Shown here: piece after piece, positions 4,938 to 35,965 of the stretch
Numbering within the stretch: position 1 is the first letter of the stretch
Layout of the letters: every line of letters starts with the position of its first letter
Source: Oscillatoria sp. CS-180
Lineage (GTDB): Bacteria; Cyanobacteriota; Cyanobacteriia; Phormidesmidales; Phormidesmidaceae
Reading direction: 5' to 3'
Length of the DNA stretch: 36,229 bases
NCBI RefSeq assembly: GCF_028330965.1
Contig: NZ_JAQMUB010000047.1
Span: 1 to 36,229 of the forward strand
Program-made: the position numbers and the translations under genes
Notes under the pieces: model-generated
Database searches by the model: none
The model's input: the letters and a program-made list of their open reading frames with translations, nothing else
What the model was told of the DNA's origin: nothing

Positions 4938-5489
4938 GCAGTGATGACTCCTTTTGATGTATCTGGATCGTAAAGGTTGGGGTCAACTGTCTTGGAAAGA
5001 GCAAAGAATTTGTAACTTCTACAGTAAGTAATTCTTTGCCTCACTGCTTCCCAGCAGTCTCAACAGTCTGCGATAGTTCGCAAGTTTGGAACCAAGAGAT
5101 AGGTTTACAAAAGCTCAGAATTCGCGTAAAGAAACCGCATCAATTGTCCCAACAGGGTTTAGAAACCTACAAAGTTTCTATCAAAAAAACCTTGCCACAT
5201 AAGGGATACAGCGAGATGCGTAATAATTTGCAATATTTTCAGCCGCAAAAACTCTCTTTAGTTGAATTTTTGTATATGTATTGTTTTTTTCTATTTCTCA
5301 GATAAAAAGTACAAAAGTGTTCTTATTGGCAGCAGCGATGATGATGCTATCGGATAGCAGTTTGAAAGCTCAAAAGCGGTGACGCCATCCAGCACGTTGG
5401 AAGCTAAGGAGCAAGGCGGACATGCCATCAGCGCGACTCAGACTGAGGGCGAAACCACAGTCTCATGATTATGGGACGGCACAATATCG
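4938..5489. other. Gene-poor region between chlH and the solute-binding protein
   Basis: No gene is supported over these 552 bases. The part next to 4937 must contain the chlH leader and promoter. At 5313-5389 (+) a short frame reads VFLLAAAMMMLSDSSLKAQ, like a signal peptide. A second plus-strand frame, 5380-5467, reads VTPSSTLEAKEQGGHAIS. Together they may be a decayed secreted-protein gene, but no ATG or ribosome site supports it. Confidence 0.4.
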
Positions 5490-7268
5490 CTATTCCGCGA
5501 TCGCTGTAAGTTCCTCAACATTCCACATGGCAAAGGGTCGAACAATGCCGGAATAGTTCACCCCACCCAGGGTATTTCGCACAGCTCCAAGGTTGTAAGG
5601 GTTAACGAGATGGATGAACGGCAAGTTTTCCTCTGCCAAACGCTGACTTTCAACATAAAGCTGACGCCGCTGCTCAAAATCAGTCTCCCGAGCCGCCCTG
5701 ATATAGAGGTTAGCAATCTCCTTTTCCCAATCTGCGGCTTCCCATCCCTCCAAAGGCTCCTGTCCAGGTAAAGCCTGCTGATTGAAAGCGTGTAGAGAGC
5801 CATCCAGCAACCAGACAACAGCTCCACTATGAGGATCTAGGCTGGCCGTAAACCCGATAATGTGGGCATCCCAGTCCAGACTGTCCCCCAATTTGGTGAC
5901 CAAAGCGTTGAAACTAATGGGCTGGAAATCAACCTGAATACCAATCCGGCTTAAGTCTTGCTTGATCTGTGCCCCAAGGGCCTCACGAATCTTGTTCCCA
6001 GAGTTCGTAATCAATGTAAACCGCACTCGATTTCCCTCAGCATCGAGGAGCTGACCGTCCGAATTGTACTGAAAGCCATCCTGCTCCAGCAGTTCCCTCG
6101 CCTTATCTAAATCGTATTCATACACTGGAACACCTTCATCAGGACCAGCGTAGAAGGGACTTTGAACCGGAACAGGAGACGTTTGAGGTGCCCCTAATCC
6201 CTGATAAATATTGTTGACCATTGTTGGCCGATCAATGGCATGGGATACAGCCCGGCGAAATGCTAGTGAGTTAAACCACCGTGACTTGATTGGGTCAACT
6301 AAGGGTTCACCGTTACGACTGGCCTTGTTTAGATTGAACGCCATAAAGGTGGTTCCTAGCGCTGGCCCCCCTTCATAAATGGTGAAATTCCCGCGTTCCT
6401 CCTCCTGCTTCATCAGCGCAAATTCATCTGGGCTGACGCCAATGACATCTAACCCACCGGAACGGAATTGCAGCAGCTGATTGTCGCTATCTTCAATGAT
6501 CTGCCAAATGAGCTGTTGAATGTAAGGCTGTTGTTCTCCGTCAGCACCTTCTCCCCAATAGTATGGATTGCGCTCAAAGATCACTCGCTGGCTGGGCAGA
6601 TATTCCTTCAGCTGATAGGGGCCATTCGTCACGATGTCTTCAGGGGGTGTCCCTGTGGTCCAAGTTGAGAGGAACATTGGATTCCCTTCTCCATCCAATG
6701 TGGTGACAGATTCCTGAAGCGCATGAGCTGGCAAAATATGAGCCGCTAAACTAACCAAAAAAGGGGCGAAGGGTTCGGGTAGTTTGAAAGCAACCTGGCG
6801 ATCGCTCAGCTTCTCAATGGTGGGTAATATCCCCTCTTCGCCAACACGGAACGTATCCCGAGATGGAGCCGGAATCGCTTCGTTGAAAATGACGTCACGA
6901 TAAGTAAACATCACGTCGTCAGCCGTCAAAGGCTCGCCATCAGACCATCTCAGATTCTCTCGCAGGGTAATCGTGTAAGTCTTACCATTCTCTGAAATGT
7001 CCCAAGATTCGGCTAACAATGGGATTAATTCGCCGGTCTCACCGTCACGGCTTGTCAGTCCCTGAAAGGTGTAAAGAAAGATATTAGGATATTCTTGACT
7101 CAGCGTTGGATTAAACGTTTTAGGGTCTCCCAAAGAGCTGAAGACGATGCGTGACGTTGCCGCCTCCGCCGTGGTGAACTGGGACAAATCGCAAGCTTTT
7201 AGCGAGATCGCTATCACCGCTGCCAATAGCAGCAGCAGTCCCCGCTTCATCCACAGCCTGATCGCCAT
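5490..7268 (-). CDS. Peptide/nickel-type ABC transporter solute-binding lipoprotein
   Basis: This is a family 5 extracellular solute-binding protein (DppA/OppA type) of 592 residues. It would capture oligopeptides or similar ligands in the periplasm for an ABC importer. The start is ATG at 7266-7268, because AGGGGAAG lies just upstream; a GTG six codons earlier is less likely. The N-terminus is a lipoprotein signal: basic MAIRLWMKRG, a hydrophobic core, and a lipobox-like LKAC with Cys26 as the lipidation site. The mature part shows the family pattern, including FSSLGDPKTFNPT, the AESWDIS..YTITLRENLRWSDGEP region and LAFRRAVSHAIDR. No permease or ATPase genes are adjacent, so it works with subunits encoded elsewhere. 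Ligand specificity cannot be read from the sequence. Confidence 0.9.
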   Translation of the reverse strand: MAIRLWMKRGLLLLLAAVIAISLKACDLSQFTTAEAATSRIVFSSLGDPKTFNPTLSQEYPNIFLYTFQGLTSRDGETGELIPLLAESWDISENGKTYTITLRENLRWSDGEPLTADDVMFTYRDVIFNEAIPAPSRDTFRVGEEGILPTIEKLSDRQVAFKLPEPFAPFLVSLAAHILPAHALQESVTTLDGEGNPMFLSTWTTGTPPEDIVTNGPYQLKEYLPSQRVIFERNPYYWGEGADGEQQPYIQQLIWQIIEDSDNQLLQFRSGGLDVIGVSPDEFALMKQEEERGNFTIYEGGPALGTTFMAFNLNKASRNGEPLVDPIKSRWFNSLAFRRAVSHAIDRPTMVNNIYQGLGAPQTSPVPVQSPFYAGPDEGVPVYEYDLDKARELLEQDGFQYNSDGQLLDAEGNRVRFTLITNSGNKIREALGAQIKQDLSRIGIQVDFQPISFNALVTKLGDSLDWDAHIIGFTASLDPHSGAVVWLLDGSLHAFNQQALPGQEPLEGWEAADWEKEIANLYIRAARETDFEQRRQLYVESQRLAEENLPFIHLVNPYNLGAVRNTLGGVNYSGIVRPFAMWNVEELTAIAE

Positions 7269-31337: not shown

Positions 31338-31508
31338 ATGCGCTATACCGTTGAAGATGGTGGTCGGCTAAACAACTTTGCAGTGGAGCCTAAGATGTAC
31401 GAAGCTGAGCCTCCGACCGCTACCGATAAGCGCAACTACATCATTTTAGGAGTCATGGCAGCAGCCCTGGTTGCAGGTGTATTCTCTATCGCATTTGTAG
31501 TCTCATAG
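31338..31508 (+). CDS. psb34: Photosystem II assembly protein Psb34
   Basis: This 56-residue single-helix thylakoid protein was missed by longer-ORF searches. The soluble N-terminus (MRYTVEDGGRLNNFAVEPKM, then AEPPTA) matches Psb34 (Ssl1498-type), including the motif shared with high-light-inducible proteins (GRLNNFAxEPK). One transmembrane segment follows (about 34-55, ending IAFVVS). Psb34 binds assembly intermediates of photosystem II at CP47 during the attachment of CP43, which is family knowledge. The ATG has GGGAAG seven bases upstream. It is a single-gene unit with a leader hairpin and a probable terminator. Confidence 0.9.
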   Translation: MRYTVEDGGRLNNFAVEPKMYEAEPPTATDKRNYIILGVMAAALVAGVFSIAFVVS

Positions 31509-31856
31509 TAGCTTGCTAAAAATTGAATACCTTTAAACAGCTTCAGCTTATCGCTGTGGCTGTTTTGCGTATGAGCGCACAACTGTCTATAGTCTGTTCT
31601 GTCGTCACTTCTAGAATATGGCTTTAATTATCTAAGCTTGTGCATTCAATAGCATTTGGGTGGAAGGCAGAGCTAAACGGCATCTTGAACAGCTAAATCC
31701 TCTCACCTATGCGGTTCAAAGAACAGCAGCTGAATTTAAGCCGGTGCTGAACAGACTGAACCCCAACGTTGATAAATGTTGCTGGGCTCCTTATCATCCA
31801 ACCAAACCAACTTATTCGGAGGAAACAAACCTGAACTTTGGGCAACTGATAGAACT
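31509..31856. other. Intergenic region between psb34 and the ParR-like gene
   Basis: Apart from the psb34 terminator there is only a doubtful 66-codon GTG ORF at 31660-31860 (+), which converges on and overlaps the stop of the ParR-like gene. Its sequence (HLEQLNPLTYAVQRTAAEF) is not a family I know, and no ribosome site precedes it, so I do not call it as a gene. Confidence 0.4.
31534..31566 (+). terminator. Probable terminator of psb34
   Basis: AAACAGC pairs with GCTGTTT, and an inner AGC/GCT pair closes a TTATC loop. The T-run is short (TTT within the stem end). It begins about 25 bases after the psb34 stop codon. Confidence 0.5.
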
Positions 31857-32258
31857 CTAAAAATCGTCTAGGTCAGCTGGGTTGATAGCCTCTCGCATTG
31901 CTTCAATTGACACTTCAGGTGGCGGTGGCGTAGAAGCAGCCGCTCCATTTGAGGTAAAGTTTGGTACAGCCGCAGGGCGATAACCTGACGCCTCTGTATT
32001 TAGATAGCGCTGCCGAATTTGAAAAATGCGAAACTGTAGCTCTTCGATCGCACTTTGAGCGATCGCTTTCAATTCCTCATCACTGACTTCGCCTTCTAAT
32101 GCCCATGGCAAATAGAAAGCCTTTAACGCCCGTAACATCACCTCGCGACTCGGGGTAATCGGATCTTTCTTCACATGGGCAAGCAGCTTGGCTTCCAGAG
32201 AATTAGGAGCGGCCTCCACCTTCAACGACACCCGACGGGCGCTTTTCGAAGATGTCAT
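31857..32258 (-). CDS. ParR-like partner protein of the actin homologue
   Basis: This 133-residue protein is encoded directly after the actin-like gene. The N-terminus (RRVSLKVE, then helices around SLEAKLLAHVKK and SREVMLRALKAFYLPWAL) fits a ribbon-helix-helix DNA-binding module. A helical middle (EELQFRIFQIRQRYL) follows, then a disordered Pro/Ala stretch. A short acidic tail ends in INPADLDDF. In plasmid ParR proteins a C-terminal helix binds the tip of the ParM filament, and this tail could do the same; that is inference. Its ATG overlaps the stop of the upstream gene (ATGA), so the two are translationally coupled, as in parMR operons. Identity as ParR rests mainly on context. Confidence 0.6.
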   Translation of the reverse strand: MTSSKSARRVSLKVEAAPNSLEAKLLAHVKKDPITPSREVMLRALKAFYLPWALEGEVSDEELKAIAQSAIEELQFRIFQIRQRYLNTEASGYRPAAVPNFTSNGAAASTPPPPEVSIEAMREAINPADLDDF

Positions 32259-33355
32259 GATACAGCCTCCAAGGGGCGGCCAAATTTAATAGCTAGCCAT
32301 TTAGAGCCACCATAGCAGTCTGCAAAGCGAATCTGGTCAGCTGGATTCACAACATTCAAAACCGTACAGACTTCTCGTTGAATCTCCGGCAGCCAGTTGA
32401 CTGTTCCTCCCGGTAAGGAATTCAGCAGTTTATCCAAACGGGTCTTCAGAAGCGTGTGCGCCGTACCACCCCCAACTAGAATTTCGTAGCTGGGAATATC
32501 AAGATAGGCAAATTTTTCACTCAAGTGGTGCTTAACTTGTTCCCAATAAAAATCTTCAGAGCGGCGAACGCGATCATTCAAATCAAAAACTCTCCCAGGT
32601 TGATCAGGGAATGAAACCGTTTCGCGTCCTTGCAAAAGTGCTTCAAATAGATAGGGATTTTCAGGTTTACAAATGCCCTGTGAAACCGAATGCAAGAATT
32701 CCAAATACCCCATTCGTGCCGTTCCACTAGGTTCGCCAGTCGGCGGCTTACCCTGACGGAAGATCAAAAATGTCAAATCGCGATGACCGACAATAACAAC
32801 AACATACGATTTATTGGCAGGCTGTCCTTGTTGCAAAGCTTGCATCTTGCGCCACTGAACCAATCCAGCTCCCTCAGGCAAAACTTTGAGATGATTAATT
32901 GCTAGGTTAATCGTCTGCCCCCGATAGACGAAAGAACTGATAGCTTTTAGTTGTTCACTGATCTCATGCTGTTCGGAAATGTACTCATCAAAGGGCAAGG
33001 CAATACCAATGTCGATATTGAGATCATAGGTTCGATTCTGATGGGCCAATTCACCTATTGCGCCTAGCACCCGTAATTTGGCTAAGACACTCTTCCGCAG
33101 CATTTCGGTGCTCTTGTTTGGGCGGCCTTCAGCATCCTCGCCTAAAGCAAAAGCCTGCTCTCCCAACTGTAAATACGCACCAGATTCAATTCCCGTACCC
33201 AACTGGTCAGCTTGATCTTTAAGAATCGTCAGCTCTGAGGGCGGTAAATCAGCTACTTTCGAAGGACAAAGATAGCTTGCGAAGCTTACTCCATCATTAA
33301 AGGCAGCCTTGGTCGCACTCATGCCCAAGTCAACGAACGCCTGAAATCGACTCAT
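32255..33355 (-). CDS. ParM/StbA-family actin-like protein
   Basis: This bacterial actin homologue of the ParM/Alp type has 366 residues, close to the family's usual length. Actin-fold elements visible are phosphate-1 (FVDLGMSATKAAF, 7-19, Asp9), a PEG turn (VLPEGAG, 158-164), the adenosine motif ILVGGGTA (292-299) and the ParM-like C-terminal FADCYGGSKWLAI (345-357). The phosphate-2 region reads VVVIVGHRDLTFLIF (185-199): the Asp expected two residues before the Gly is Ile. ParM needs that Asp to hydrolyse ATP, so activity may be altered. It is the first gene of a two-gene operon. The start is ATG at 33353-33355, with GGAG seven bases upstream in a hairpin. In plasmids such proteins push replicons apart; here the neighbours are chromosomal. 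Confidence 0.82.
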   Translation of the reverse strand: MSRFQAFVDLGMSATKAAFNDGVSFASYLCPSKVADLPPSELTILKDQADQLGTGIESGAYLQLGEQAFALGEDAEGRPNKSTEMLRKSVLAKLRVLGAIGELAHQNRTYDLNIDIGIALPFDEYISEQHEISEQLKAISSFVYRGQTINLAINHLKVLPEGAGLVQWRKMQALQQGQPANKSYVVVIVGHRDLTFLIFRQGKPPTGEPSGTARMGYLEFLHSVSQGICKPENPYLFEALLQGRETVSFPDQPGRVFDLNDRVRRSEDFYWEQVKHHLSEKFAYLDIPSYEILVGGGTAHTLLKTRLDKLLNSLPGGTVNWLPEIQREVCTVLNVVNPADQIRFADCYGGSKWLAIKFGRPLEAVS

Positions 33356-33369
33356 GGGAAGTCTCCCAT
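33354..33369 (-). promoter_or_regulatory. Hairpin covering ribosome site and start codon of the actin-like gene
   Basis: On the minus strand ATGGGA (33369-33364) and TCCCAT (33359-33354) form a perfect 6-bp stem around GACT. The first arm overlaps the GGAG ribosome site and the second contains the first two bases of the start codon. If formed in the mRNA it would limit translation. Confidence 0.45.
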
Positions 33370-33378
33370 CTGATTGAT

Positions 33379-33398
33379 TATAGTTAGTTTGAACTATA
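33379..33398. promoter_or_regulatory. Inverted repeat TATAGTT-N6-AACTATA before the actin-like gene
   Basis: A perfect 7-bp inverted repeat with a six-base spacer is centred about 33 bases upstream of the start codon. Its place and size suit an operator or centromere-like site for the ParR-like protein. The arms also resemble a -10 element. Confidence 0.45.
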
Positions 33399-33403
33399 TC
33401 ACG

Positions 33404-33423
33404 ATTACATCACTTTCTGTAAT
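33404..33423. promoter_or_regulatory. Second inverted repeat ATTACA-N8-TGTAAT
   Basis: A perfect 6-bp inverted repeat starts six bases beyond the first one. Its centre is 25 bases from the centre of the first. The arms differ in sequence from the first repeat, so a single shared binding protein is not assured. Confidence 0.4.
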
Positions 33424-33722: not shown

Positions 33723-34190
33723 ATGAAAACGAATGCAGCCAGAATTCTTGAACAGCAGAGTATTCCCTATGAATTGCTATTCTACGAAGTCGATCCGAAT
33801 GATTTGGCAGCGGAACGGGCTGCAGATAAGTTAGGTCTGCCTCACGAGCAAGTATTCAAGACGCTTGTGGCAAGAGGCGATCGCTCCGGTGTCTGTTTGG
33901 CAGTGATACCGGCCAACGCTAAACTCAACCTCAAAGCTCTTGCCAAAATGTCAGACAATAAAAAAGTTGAAACCGTTCCCCTCAAAGAAGTGCAGGGACT
34001 AACTGGCTACATTCGGGGTGGTGTCACTGCCCTGGGCTGCAAAAAATCCTATCCGGTATTCCTAGATATCTCCGCTACCCAGTTTGATAAAATCGCAGTC
34101 TCAGCAGGTAAACGGGGACAAATGCTGCTAGTTTCGCCAACCACTTACCAAATCGCTGTGCAGGGAACCATTGGGGCGATCGCTAATTAA
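33723..34190 (+). CDS. ybaK: Cys-tRNA(Pro)/Cys-tRNA(Cys) deacylase, YbaK type
   Basis: This trans-editing enzyme hydrolyses Cys-tRNA(Pro) made in error by prolyl-tRNA synthetase. It has 155 residues, full length for YbaK/EbsC. Family blocks are MKTNAARILEQQSIPYELL, LPHEQVFKTLVARGD (with the conserved Lys), and LAVIPANAKLNLKALAKMSD. RGGVTALGCKKSYPVFLD, the typical GG(x)3-GxKK segment, follows. The ATG has no strong ribosome site. It converges with coaE, with the two 3' ends overlapping by eight bases (34183-34190). Confidence 0.93.
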   Translation: MKTNAARILEQQSIPYELLFYEVDPNDLAAERAADKLGLPHEQVFKTLVARGDRSGVCLAVIPANAKLNLKALAKMSDNKKVETVPLKEVQGLTGYIRGGVTALGCKKSYPVFLDISATQFDKIAVSAGKRGQMLLVSPTTYQIAVQGTIGAIAN

Positions 34191-34773
34191 CAGCCAATGC
34201 ATGATTAACCTGTTGGTACAAGTTTTCCAGGGTCAATGTATTATCCAAAACGACATCTGCTAGCTCTATTTTCTGCTGTAGGGGCCACTGATTAGCAATA
34301 CGGGCTGTCGCTGCCGGCAGCGATAAATGATCTCTGGCTATCAGTCGCGCTCGCTGCACTTCCTCAGAACAGGCCACTACCCAAATCTCAGTCACTTGAT
34401 CCGTCAAATCTGCCTCGAACAAAAGTGGAATTGACTGTACGACAACAGGAAGCATCGCGACCTTTCTCATCTCCTCTATAAATTGCTGTCGCACAAATGG
34501 ATGAATTTGTTGTTCTACCCAAAGCTTTTCCGCAGCATCGTTAAAGATAATCTGACCAAGCTGCGAGCGATTGAGCGTGTTGTCATCATTCAGGATGGAT
34601 TGGCTATAGCGTTCAGCGATCGCTGTCAAAATTTTGCTTCCAGGTGCCACTGCCTGTCGTGCATAGGCATCGGCATCTAAAATAGGCAAACCATAGCGTG
34701 CTTCTAAATAACGGGAAACAGTTGATTTGCCAGTAGCGATGCCCCCCGTTAATCCGATGATGCGCTGACCCAT
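34183..34773 (-). CDS. coaE: Dephospho-CoA kinase
   Basis: CoaE phosphorylates the ribose 3'-OH of dephospho-CoA in the last step of coenzyme A synthesis. Its 196 residues start with MGQRIIGLTGGIATGKSTVS (P-loop GGIATGKS), followed by the substrate-binding ILDADAYARQAV. It also has VVQSIPLLFEADL and the ARLIARDHLS lid region. The ATG lies inside the end of hemD (25-base overlap), so it is probably translated by coupling or re-initiation on a hemD-coaE transcript. Confidence 0.95.
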   Translation of the reverse strand: MGQRIIGLTGGIATGKSTVSRYLEARYGLPILDADAYARQAVAPGSKILTAIAERYSQSILNDDNTLNRSQLGQIIFNDAAEKLWVEQQIHPFVRQQFIEEMRKVAMLPVVVQSIPLLFEADLTDQVTEIWVVACSEEVQRARLIARDHLSLPAATARIANQWPLQQKIELADVVLDNTLTLENLYQQVNHALAVN

Positions 34774-35555
34774 TGTGCAATCGCTCTTGTTAGGCCATCC
34801 AAAGTGTATTCGTCAGCTTCAATATCTACTCGCCCAATCAGTTCCACACAAGTTTCTGACGTTCTAGGACCGATAGAAGCAACAGCAACGGTTTTCAAAT
34901 AATCTGCCCATATACTCCCCAAACCCTGTTCTAACAATTGACAAGTGTGGCGCACTGTTTTAGAACTAGCAAACGTAATAATATCAATTTGATGAGATTG
35001 GAGAGCTAAGATTGCTGTTGGGTCTGGAGCCTGGGGACAACCTGTGTCATACGCTGGAACCTCTGTTACTTCTGCTCCTGCCACAGTCATCTCTCGCACC
35101 AAAATATCCCGCCCCCCATTCTCTACTCTAGGAAACAGCAATTTCAAACCAGCTAACGATCCTGGAAAATCAGCAACCAAAGAATCTGCCACAAAACTGG
35201 GTGGGATAAAATTCGGTGTTAACCCACGTTGTTTTAAAACTTTTGCCGTTTTTTTACCTACAACGGCAAGTTTCAACGTCTTCAAATCTGCCAAATCCCC
35301 AGCAATTGCTTTCAATCTATCCAAGAAAAAATGGACTGCGTTAGCTGAGGTCAAAATTAACCAGTCATAATTAGCCAATTGAGCGATCGCTGCATCCAAA
35401 GCTTCCCAACTAGACGGCGCACAAATTTCCAGGGCAGGCATCTCGATAACGCTCCAACCTTCAGCTTCTAACAACCTTGTGAACTCACTATTCTGGCCGG
35501 CAGAACGGGTTATCAAGATGCTTCTAGAGCAGGAAAGTGAGTGCGATCGATTCAT
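34749..35555 (-). CDS. hemD: Uroporphyrinogen-III synthase
   Basis: HemD closes and isomerises hydroxymethylbilane to uroporphyrinogen III, the branch point to haem, chlorophyll and cobalamin. Its 268 residues show the divergent but recognisable pattern ILITRSAGQNSEFTRLLEAE, ALEICAPSSW, and DWLILTSANAVHFFLDRLKA. FPRVENGGRDILV and IITFASSKTVRHTCQLLEQ follow (Tyr or Ser/Thr active-site surroundings). ATG start at 35553-35555. It forms an operon with coaE downstream. Together with chlH at the other end of the window it supplies tetrapyrrole synthesis, but the two are about 30 kb apart. Confidence 0.92.
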   Translation of the reverse strand: MNRSHSLSCSRSILITRSAGQNSEFTRLLEAEGWSVIEMPALEICAPSSWEALDAAIAQLANYDWLILTSANAVHFFLDRLKAIAGDLADLKTLKLAVVGKKTAKVLKQRGLTPNFIPPSFVADSLVADFPGSLAGLKLLFPRVENGGRDILVREMTVAGAEVTEVPAYDTGCPQAPDPTAILALQSHQIDIITFASSKTVRHTCQLLEQGLGSIWADYLKTVAVASIGPRTSETCVELIGRVDIEADEYTLDGLTRAIAQWVSASSD

Positions 35556-35674: not shown

Positions 35675-35965
35675 TTAGGACTTGACCTTTTGCTTAGCTA
35701 CCCATTCTGAATGTCTTTGAATATTGGGGTCCGCTTTGATTTGCTCAAAAGTACAGAGGTGCTTTGCTAACGCCATTTCACCGTAGTGACTATGAATACC
35801 ATCATGGCACAGGCGACAGATCCAGATACCTTCATTAAGTTCTGCTTTTGAATAGGTTTTCTTATATCGAGTTCTTCGGTGCAGCTTTTTAGGAATCAAA
35901 TGATGAAACGCTAGCATTAACCAGCGTTTGCACAAAGGGCACTCGCCTGTTTGACGTTTTGCCAC
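35675..35965 (-). CDS. Small HNH-type nuclease-domain protein
   Basis: This compact HNH protein has 96 residues. A zinc-binding CPLC (Cys9, Cys12) pairs with CRLC (Cys50, Cys53). The catalytic elements are FHHLIPK (His21, His22), Asn44 in ELNEG, and CHDGIH (His54, His58). The domain is almost the entire protein, with a short basic tail. Free-standing HNH proteins of this kind occur in many cyanobacteria. Cellular role is unknown; homing-type or restriction activity cannot be claimed from the domain alone. The start is GTG at 35963-35965. It lies 25 bases downstream of the partial gene and is probably co-transcribed with it. Confidence 0.8.
   Translation of the reverse strand: MAKRQTGECPLCKRWLMLAFHHLIPKKLHRRTRYKKTYSKAELNEGIWICRLCHDGIHSHYGEMALAKHLCTFEQIKADPNIQRHSEWVAKQKVKS

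Follow-up and report, generated by a model that had tools for sequence, protein, structure and literature searches.

The window, 36,229 nucleotides of Oscillatoria sp. CS-180, is an entire 36-kb contig of a 102-contig draft assembly. Two genes overlap on its minus strand: one (32255 to 33355) encodes a ParM-like actin homolog of 366 aa, recognized by its open reading frame, Pfam, a PDB match and alignment, and the other (31857 to 32258) encodes a small ParR-like protein of 133 aa, hereafter called R, recognized by its open reading frame, a 16-member alignment and hhalign. The parM stop and the R start share an ATGA (32255 to 32258, minus strand), and the same overlap was found at positions 7258 to 7261 of locus L032. 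The first-pass annotation had read this region as a ParM/StbA-type actin followed through an ATGA overlap by a small gene, and both reading frames were indeed found at these coordinates. The actin matched the Pfam family ALP_N (PF17989) with 42.8 bits (E=8.1e-11; cut-off 26.3), and its best match among solved structures was CorM (PDB 9rmi), at E 3e-4 with the single protein and 1.1e-8 with the family profile; CorMR is reportedly a cortical cell-shape system derived from ParMR. The protein carries a phosphate-1 motif (DLGMSATK, residues 9 to 16), LPEGAG with E161, an adenosine motif (VGGG, residues 294 to 297) and GHRDLTF (residues 190 to 196), which replaces the usual D-x-G-x-x-T-x-D. Judged by its sequence family, it would be a ParM-type bacterial actin. 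The AF2 model of the actin (pLDDT 42.5) was too poor for use, a PHROGs search returned no match, and no relatives were confirmed among viral contigs.

The pair lies between genes of the bacterial core. On one side there is a plus-strand ORF of 56 aa (31338 to 31508) without a Pfam match, which we take to be psb34. On the other side are a gene for a YbaK/tRNA_edit-domain protein (33723 to 34190, plus strand; PF04073, 2e-24), coaE (34183 to 34773, minus strand; PF01121, 1.6e-56) and hemD (34749 to 35555, minus strand; PF02602, 5.5e-58). The flanks named earlier, psb34 and ybaK-coaE-hemD, are therefore as claimed from the map and, for the last three genes, from Pfam. A 66-aa ORF (31660 to 31860) had no Pfam match. 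The same holds for a small conserved ORF beside hemD (35678 to 35965), which is 70% identical in genome G005 and 55% in G003 and looks HNH-like by eye. Farther off, the window encodes a CobN/Mg-chelatase family protein, glycyl-tRNA synthetase alpha, GidB and a photolyase, among others. We scanned 27 window proteins with Pfam, seven of which had no family and which did not include the smaller ORFs, and found no replication, mobilization (relaxase), integrase or transposase domain in them; queries with TrwC relaxases gave zero matches in the window. The earlier statement that no replication, mobilization or transposase gene is present agrees with both searches, in which none was recognized. Because the window is a single 36-kb contig of a 102-contig draft, its chromosomal location was deduced from gene content and from relatives.

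To define the family, we built a profile (A1) from 11 relatives of the actin and called proteins W-type at E<=1e-130. W-type actins occurred in 18 of the 388 genomes of the class (the window's own included, and one copy broken), in 13 of 63 genomes of the same family and in one of the six genomes of the window's genus. Neighborhoods were available for 21 W loci, comprising 19 intact ones, one partial at a contig end (L076, in G073) and one broken (L075, in G086), the last with an interrupted parM reading frame at 438 to 1417. L031, a MAG contig of Cyanothece sp. SIO2G6, was counted as the G038 copy. All 19 intact loci, with the window counted, have a homologous R gene directly after parM, which is far beyond chance. 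A relaxase gene of the TrwC/MobF type, divergent from parM, was found in seven of them (L035, L070, L071, L072, L073, L074 and L106), assigned to TrwC by Pfam for L035 (E 1e-84) and as tblastn homologs in the other six, two of which are cut by a contig end while the L074 match spans only 360 residues. The available stretch held no relaxase gene in the remaining 12, including L031 and L033, whose contigs of less than 5 kb still show the gene directly upstream, in each case one other than a relaxase gene.

For one relaxase-linked copy, L073, a plasmid location is suggested by its contig, which has 84 kb in an assembly of only 5 contigs. In six of the seven relaxase-linked loci (L035, L070, L071, L072, L073 and L106), parR is followed by a response-regulator/histidine-kinase-like pair, assigned by eye and by clustering; in the seventh, the contig ends. 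Among relaxase-free loci, we considered an M23/LysM peptidase as a common cell-wall link of the groups g16 (L036, L068 and L069, where it is beside parR) and g2 (L037 to L039, where it is near), and rejected it as an orthologous neighbor because the g16 and g2 proteins are only 31 to 37% alike, and this over part of their length. No W-type parM was found among PLSDB plasmids, 59 of whose 72,556 records matched with a best identity of 28.5%. In a more distant type of ParM, which we call B (about 28% identity), a relaxase gene was present in 10 of 11 loci. Some of the relaxase-linked B-type copies are on chromosome-size contigs (G005:C1, 7.9 Mb; G006:C5, 8.2 Mb), indicating that such modules also integrate. 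In three of the eight plasmid regions examined (pAQ6, p057_K and pLBX), mobF adjoins parM. The W lineage was not named in the titles and abstract openings of articles, preprints outside the scope, on FcmB, on CorM/CorR or on cyanobacterial ParM together with relaxase.

We then compared R with two kinds of partner proteins. FcmB-FcmC of Nostoc punctiforme is described as a chromosomal, ParMR-derived pair that is needed for rod shape (Nguyen et al. 2025, PMC12645912). In hhalign, R aligned with a profile of proteins in the ParR position, seven from B-type (relaxase-linked) loci and three from plasmids, with a probability of 97.95 (E 3.1e-13, 83 columns), and its match to FcmC was weaker (probability 54, E 1.2e-4). 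At the profile level, R is thus a remote homolog of relaxase-linked and plasmid ParRs. Its layout consists of a basic, strand-like start (RRVSLKV), two helices, a long helix, a variable linker and a C-terminal LDDF. Pfam gave nothing significant for R, a ribbon-helix-helix (RHH) family matched none of the 16 aligned R proteins, and no significant PDB sequence match was obtained for R or for the ParR profile (A6). In the AF2 model of R, which was made from two sequences, helices span residues 21 to 31, 38 to 49 and 60 to 90, and the strand is unformed; the first two helices are compatible with the RHH order in this low-confidence model (mean pLDDT 56). The RHH-like start noted earlier thus has only indirect support, and R, from its profile match, probably binds DNA. 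At the other end of the protein, LDDF is found in 15 of the 16 W members of alignment A7 (which covers 16 of the 19 W R proteins) and LDEF in the remaining one, and all five members of the window's subclade, defined below, end in LDDF. Ten aligned FcmC proteins end in LDDF, IDDF, LEDF or VDDF, and none of the 10 B-type and plasmid ParR proteins has an end of this kind. By analogy with ParR, the LDDF tail may be the filament-binding end. Six of the 10 FcmC proteins begin with MFQW, possibly a membrane anchor, which is absent from the other four and from R.

In a ParM tree of 44 rows, for which the program issued a long-branch warning among the plasmid rows, the W proteins (19 rows) formed a clade with 100/100 support and the FcmB proteins (eight rows) another with 100/100, apart from it and on a long branch. 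Within W, the window grouped with L031, L032, L033 and L034 (99/98), a subclade of five genomes (G000, G010, G012, G020 and G038, L032 being the locus of G012) in which no relaxase gene was seen as far as the contigs reach. This subclade joins the relaxase-linked L073 and L074 (91/93); the remaining relaxase-linked rows come next (94/95), and the other relaxase-free group (L036, L068, L069 and L037 to L040, the g2 and g16 groups) branches outside. The topology suggests two separate losses of the relaxase link. In an AU test, neither a single clade of all 12 relaxase-free loci (p 0.078) nor the relaxase-linked loci as one group (p 0.176) was rejected, and since the single relaxase-free group stands at p 0.078, two domestications are favored but not required.

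The alignment behind the tree also separates the two families at the nucleotide site. One column, which by sequence would correspond to the phosphate-2 Asp, D170 of R1 ParM, is hydrophobic in all 36 non-FcmB rows, plasmid ParMs included, and is Asp in all eight FcmB rows; the Asp is accordingly absent from 19 of 19 W rows. GHR[DN] is present in 32 of the 36 non-FcmB rows (window 32756 to 32809, residues 183 to 200), and all 44 rows retain the PEG/PEA Glu. Loss of the phosphate-2 residue, in ParM D170A and in AlfA mutants, is described as leading to static filaments (PMC5539076). Because the missing Asp is a trait of the whole class, it does not by itself exclude ParM function, nor does it mark domestication.

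Upstream of parM, a non-coding block (33356 to 33404, minus strand) can be aligned with G012, a genome of another genus (75% across 64 nt that take in the start of parM). This block contains the palindrome ATAGTT-N6-AACTAT (33380 to 33397), which could be the operator of R. In G012, identical half-sites are found at about the same distance from the parM ATG, and the remaining upstream region no longer aligns. The window has one such palindrome versus 0.00 expected, for a pattern chosen after the sequence had been seen; there are three in the window's own genome and one in G012, and a reversed-pattern control gave none in either. Compared with shuffled sequences, the p value was 0.057 for the window, which is marginal, and 0.017 for G012. 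Other W loci have different palindromes upstream or none, and conservation is limited to the window-G012 pair. Of the two further copies in the window's genome, one (L116, 6376 to 6393) lies upstream of a Uma2-family gene in the neighborhood of suf-like genes (assigned by eye), and the other (L117, 6348 to 6365) directly behind a DUF3082 gene.

A sigma-70 scan upstream of parM found no promoter-like site, and the 300 bp upstream of parM contain no repeated 8-mers, direct or inverted. Only short two-copy repeats occur up- and downstream of the operon, and iteron-type parC was not detected beside it. Direct repeats with p<0.05 were found in all five B-type loci tested, in two of seven relaxase-linked W loci, in five of 12 relaxase-free W loci (L031, L068, L069, L037 and L040), and in none of three plasmid and three FcmB loci. 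Since mobile W and plasmid loci mostly lack repeats too, the lack of iterons in the window, though real, has no diagnostic value. In L035, an 82-bp direct repeat (90% identical; 5239 to 5405) lies directly upstream of parM, between parM and the relaxase gene, and L070 also has many repeated 8-mers upstream of parM; both are candidates for parC or oriT.

To see how long the pair may have been resident, we compared the surrounding gene order. G012 has psb34-DUF3616-parR-parM on a 2.07-Mb contig, with ybaK-coaE-hemD about 170 kb away. The genus-mates G002 and G003 have psb34-DUF3616-ybaK-coaE-hemD and no parMR; there, the DUF3616 gene (L091 of G002, 5120 to 6208; L092 of G003, 5386 to 6474, by Pfam for the latter) occupies the psb34-ybaK interval that holds parMR in the window. 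In G001, G004 and G005, psb34 does not adjoin ybaK in the stretches examined. The proposal that the pair is fixed in the chromosome is thus borne out by the core neighbors here and by the psb34-side position in another genus. The psb34-like ORF of the window is 91% identical in G012 and 86% in G002 and G003. HemD identity is 67% to G012 and 66 to 69% to five genus-mates, so that G012 is about as distant as a genus-mate, and an old residence of parMR is plausible.

Between the window and G012, ParM is 90% identical at the amino acid level, with a saturated pS of 0.835 and a pN of 0.062, and R is 70% identical (pS 0.81, pN 0.20). As yardsticks, the core genes ybaK and S9 peptidase have pS values of 0.849 and 0.808 between the window and G003 (L092), and the short psb34 has 0.655 to G012 and 0.622 to G003. 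A recent transfer between the window's genome and G012 is unlikely, given the saturated synonymous sites, the core-like pS and the HemD distance. The pattern fits an old transfer or a loss in the genus-mates alike. As the actin is still 90% identical despite saturated synonymous sites, parMR is, by these comparisons, old, under strong purifying selection and not decaying. In three other W pairs, omega of parM was 0.027, 0.028 and 0.013. The first-pass annotation had proposed a filament system with some function outside plasmid partition, for example in cell shape or chromosome copies, or else a fixed plasmid relic. Descent from a mobile partition module gained support, as seven of 19 W loci adjoin a relaxase gene and R is remotely homologous to mobile ParRs; decay was not supported, given the strong purifying selection. 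A plasmid or integrated setting in relatives, which the annotation had named as evidence against its reading, was seen only for more distant W loci (57 to 64% identity, six measured) and not for the five subclade members as far as their contigs reach.

FcmB-FcmC is among the closest known systems to such a resident pair. FcmB and CorM are one family, because 18 of the 20 residues of the FcmB antibody peptide given in PMC12645912 are the same in CorM and because the L058 protein, which shares 94% identity with CorM across 299 residues, reaches 750.5 bits with the FcmB model. FcmB loci are described as chromosomal in all cases inspected by hand (PMC12645912). We observed FcmB/CorM-like proteins with 70 to 73% identity on the plasmids NZ_CP026684, NZ_CP043059, NZ_CP047243 and NC_007410 (Nostoc, Dolichospermum and Trichormus). 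If the window pair were an ortholog of this FcmB-FcmC (CorM-CorR) shape system, the shared two-gene chromosomal layout, CorM as the best solved-structure match and the common [LIV][DE][DE]F end of both R families would be accounted for. However, the window actin scores only 34.2 bits with the FcmB model NF052678 (cut-off 300; best in its own genome 33.6), and R gave no match with the FcmC model NF052682 (cut-off 90 bits), with which the L058 partner, used as a control, scores 239.4 bits. In addition, FcmB has its own fully supported clade on a long branch, the phosphate-2 Asp is in eight of eight FcmB but zero of 19 W rows, R fits the relaxase-linked and plasmid ParR profile better than FcmC, and FcmB is present as an additional gene in all seven genomes of the other relaxase-free W subclade. 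Tree, model scores and co-occurrence together reject orthology, which we regard as extremely improbable. More broadly, the FcmB model was over its cut-off in eight of 19 chosen genomes, namely in those seven, in one of two relaxase-linked genomes (G073 but not G142), in none of the six of the window's genus and in none of the five of the window's subclade (G020 being 83% complete). A CorM query (E<=1e-40) likewise found 90 of the 388 class genomes, among them neither the window's own genome nor the five genus-mates nor G012. Since no genome of the window's subclade has an FcmB over the cut-off, its parMR could fill FcmB's need, which is a suggestion only because few genera are behind the zero of five versus seven of seven.

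Three further explanations were considered. The pair could act in trans, either partitioning a co-resident plasmid or destabilizing incoming MobF elements through competition at partition sites; the mobile-type ParR features retained by R, its close kinship with relaxase-linked par modules and the patchy distribution would all suit such a role, but the low identity of the best PLSDB match means that no W-type plasmid target is known in that collection, and the palindrome has only three copies in its own genome, which makes this explanation unlikely. We are more doubtful about a true centromere system that segregates or positions the chromosome. Although the operon is chromosomal beside psb34 in two genera and R, from its ParR profile match, probably binds DNA, G012 has a single candidate site by the operon and the window's genome three scattered ones, without an array, and genus-mates live without parMR. 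Finally, an integrated plasmid or ICE could have left the operon behind as a fixed relic that has no function today, in line with the relaxase genes beside its kin, the integration seen for relaxase-linked B-type copies (G005:C1 and G006:C5), its absence from five of six genus members and the broken W-type parM of G086. Conservation of the protein at saturated synonymous sites, omega values no higher than about 0.03 in the three other W pairs and the lack of any other recognized mobile gene around the operon speak against a relic, and we consider it improbable.

We tentatively favor, at a little below even confidence, that a plasmid-type ParMR module has turned into a resident chromosomal pair that is maintained because it serves the host. 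In the R1 ParMRC scheme, an actin filament works with a DNA-binding RHH adaptor that has a filament-binding C-terminus, and this scheme was assumed for the window pair. R would form an RHH dimer that binds the palindrome at 33380 to 33397, and by doing so could repress its own operon and mark that DNA. Its LDDF tail would bind the ends of ParM filaments, which would form in a nucleotide-dependent manner, and the R-anchored filaments might then position something in the cell and thereby serve a host function. A role that uses DNA-bound R, such as positioning of the nucleoid or of a locus, seems somewhat more likely than a membrane-anchored cortex, because R has retained the basic strand found in mobile-type ParRs and has no MFQW. 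This second argument is weak, as four of the 10 FcmC proteins are without MFQW too. Against a host role stands the patchy spread of the family, both in the class and within the genus, which is unlike that of an important host system, and the palindrome could serve another regulator. A more specific version, which we think rather unlikely as a whole, has a domestication independent of FcmBC, perhaps two of them (window and g2/g16 subclades), and a host role with DNA-anchored, possibly static or differently hydrolyzing filaments of the class that lacks the phosphate-2 Asp.

FcmBC showed in 2025 that an actin of plasmid partition can be turned into a system for cell shape. With a second chromosomal ParMR lineage, separate, under selection and with extant relaxase-linked sisters, the transition from plasmid motor to host filament could be tested by comparing close relatives from before and after it. 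Such a lineage would also pose the question of how actins of a class that lacks the canonical phosphate-2 Asp function.

Compared with known systems, the window locus differs from R1 ParMRC in that no parC iterons, which plasmid R1 is described as carrying (PMC4949242), were detected. R1 ParM and ParR are also described as stimulating the TraI relaxase (PMC4949242), an activity that may explain the continued linkage of parMR with relaxase genes in mobile relatives. With the MobF-linked ParM/StbA-ParR modules of the cyanobacterial plasmids pAQ6, p057_K and pLBX, the window pair has in common that the actin is of the class lacking the phosphate-2 Asp, that parM is followed by a small gene and that the R profile, which includes two of the three, is homologous. 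Unlike there, where a relaxase gene is beside parM, the flanks here are core genes, and ParM identity is 26 to 28%. A parMR pair on the chromosome is likewise described for cParMR of Desulfitobacterium and Clostridium, with its role given as unknown (Ali et al. 2025, PMC12270681); those Firmicutes belong to another phylum, and the likeness is one of description. From FcmBC, the window pair is set apart by a ParM in a separate clade without the phosphate-2 Asp, by the narrower spread of W (18 versus 90 of 388 class genomes) and by a shorter R, which does not begin with the MFQW found in six of the 10 FcmC proteins. Nevertheless, both are chromosomal parM-parR-like cyanobacterial pairs of apparent plasmid descent, and in both the small partner combines a putative RHH-like start with an acidic, DDF-type C-terminus.
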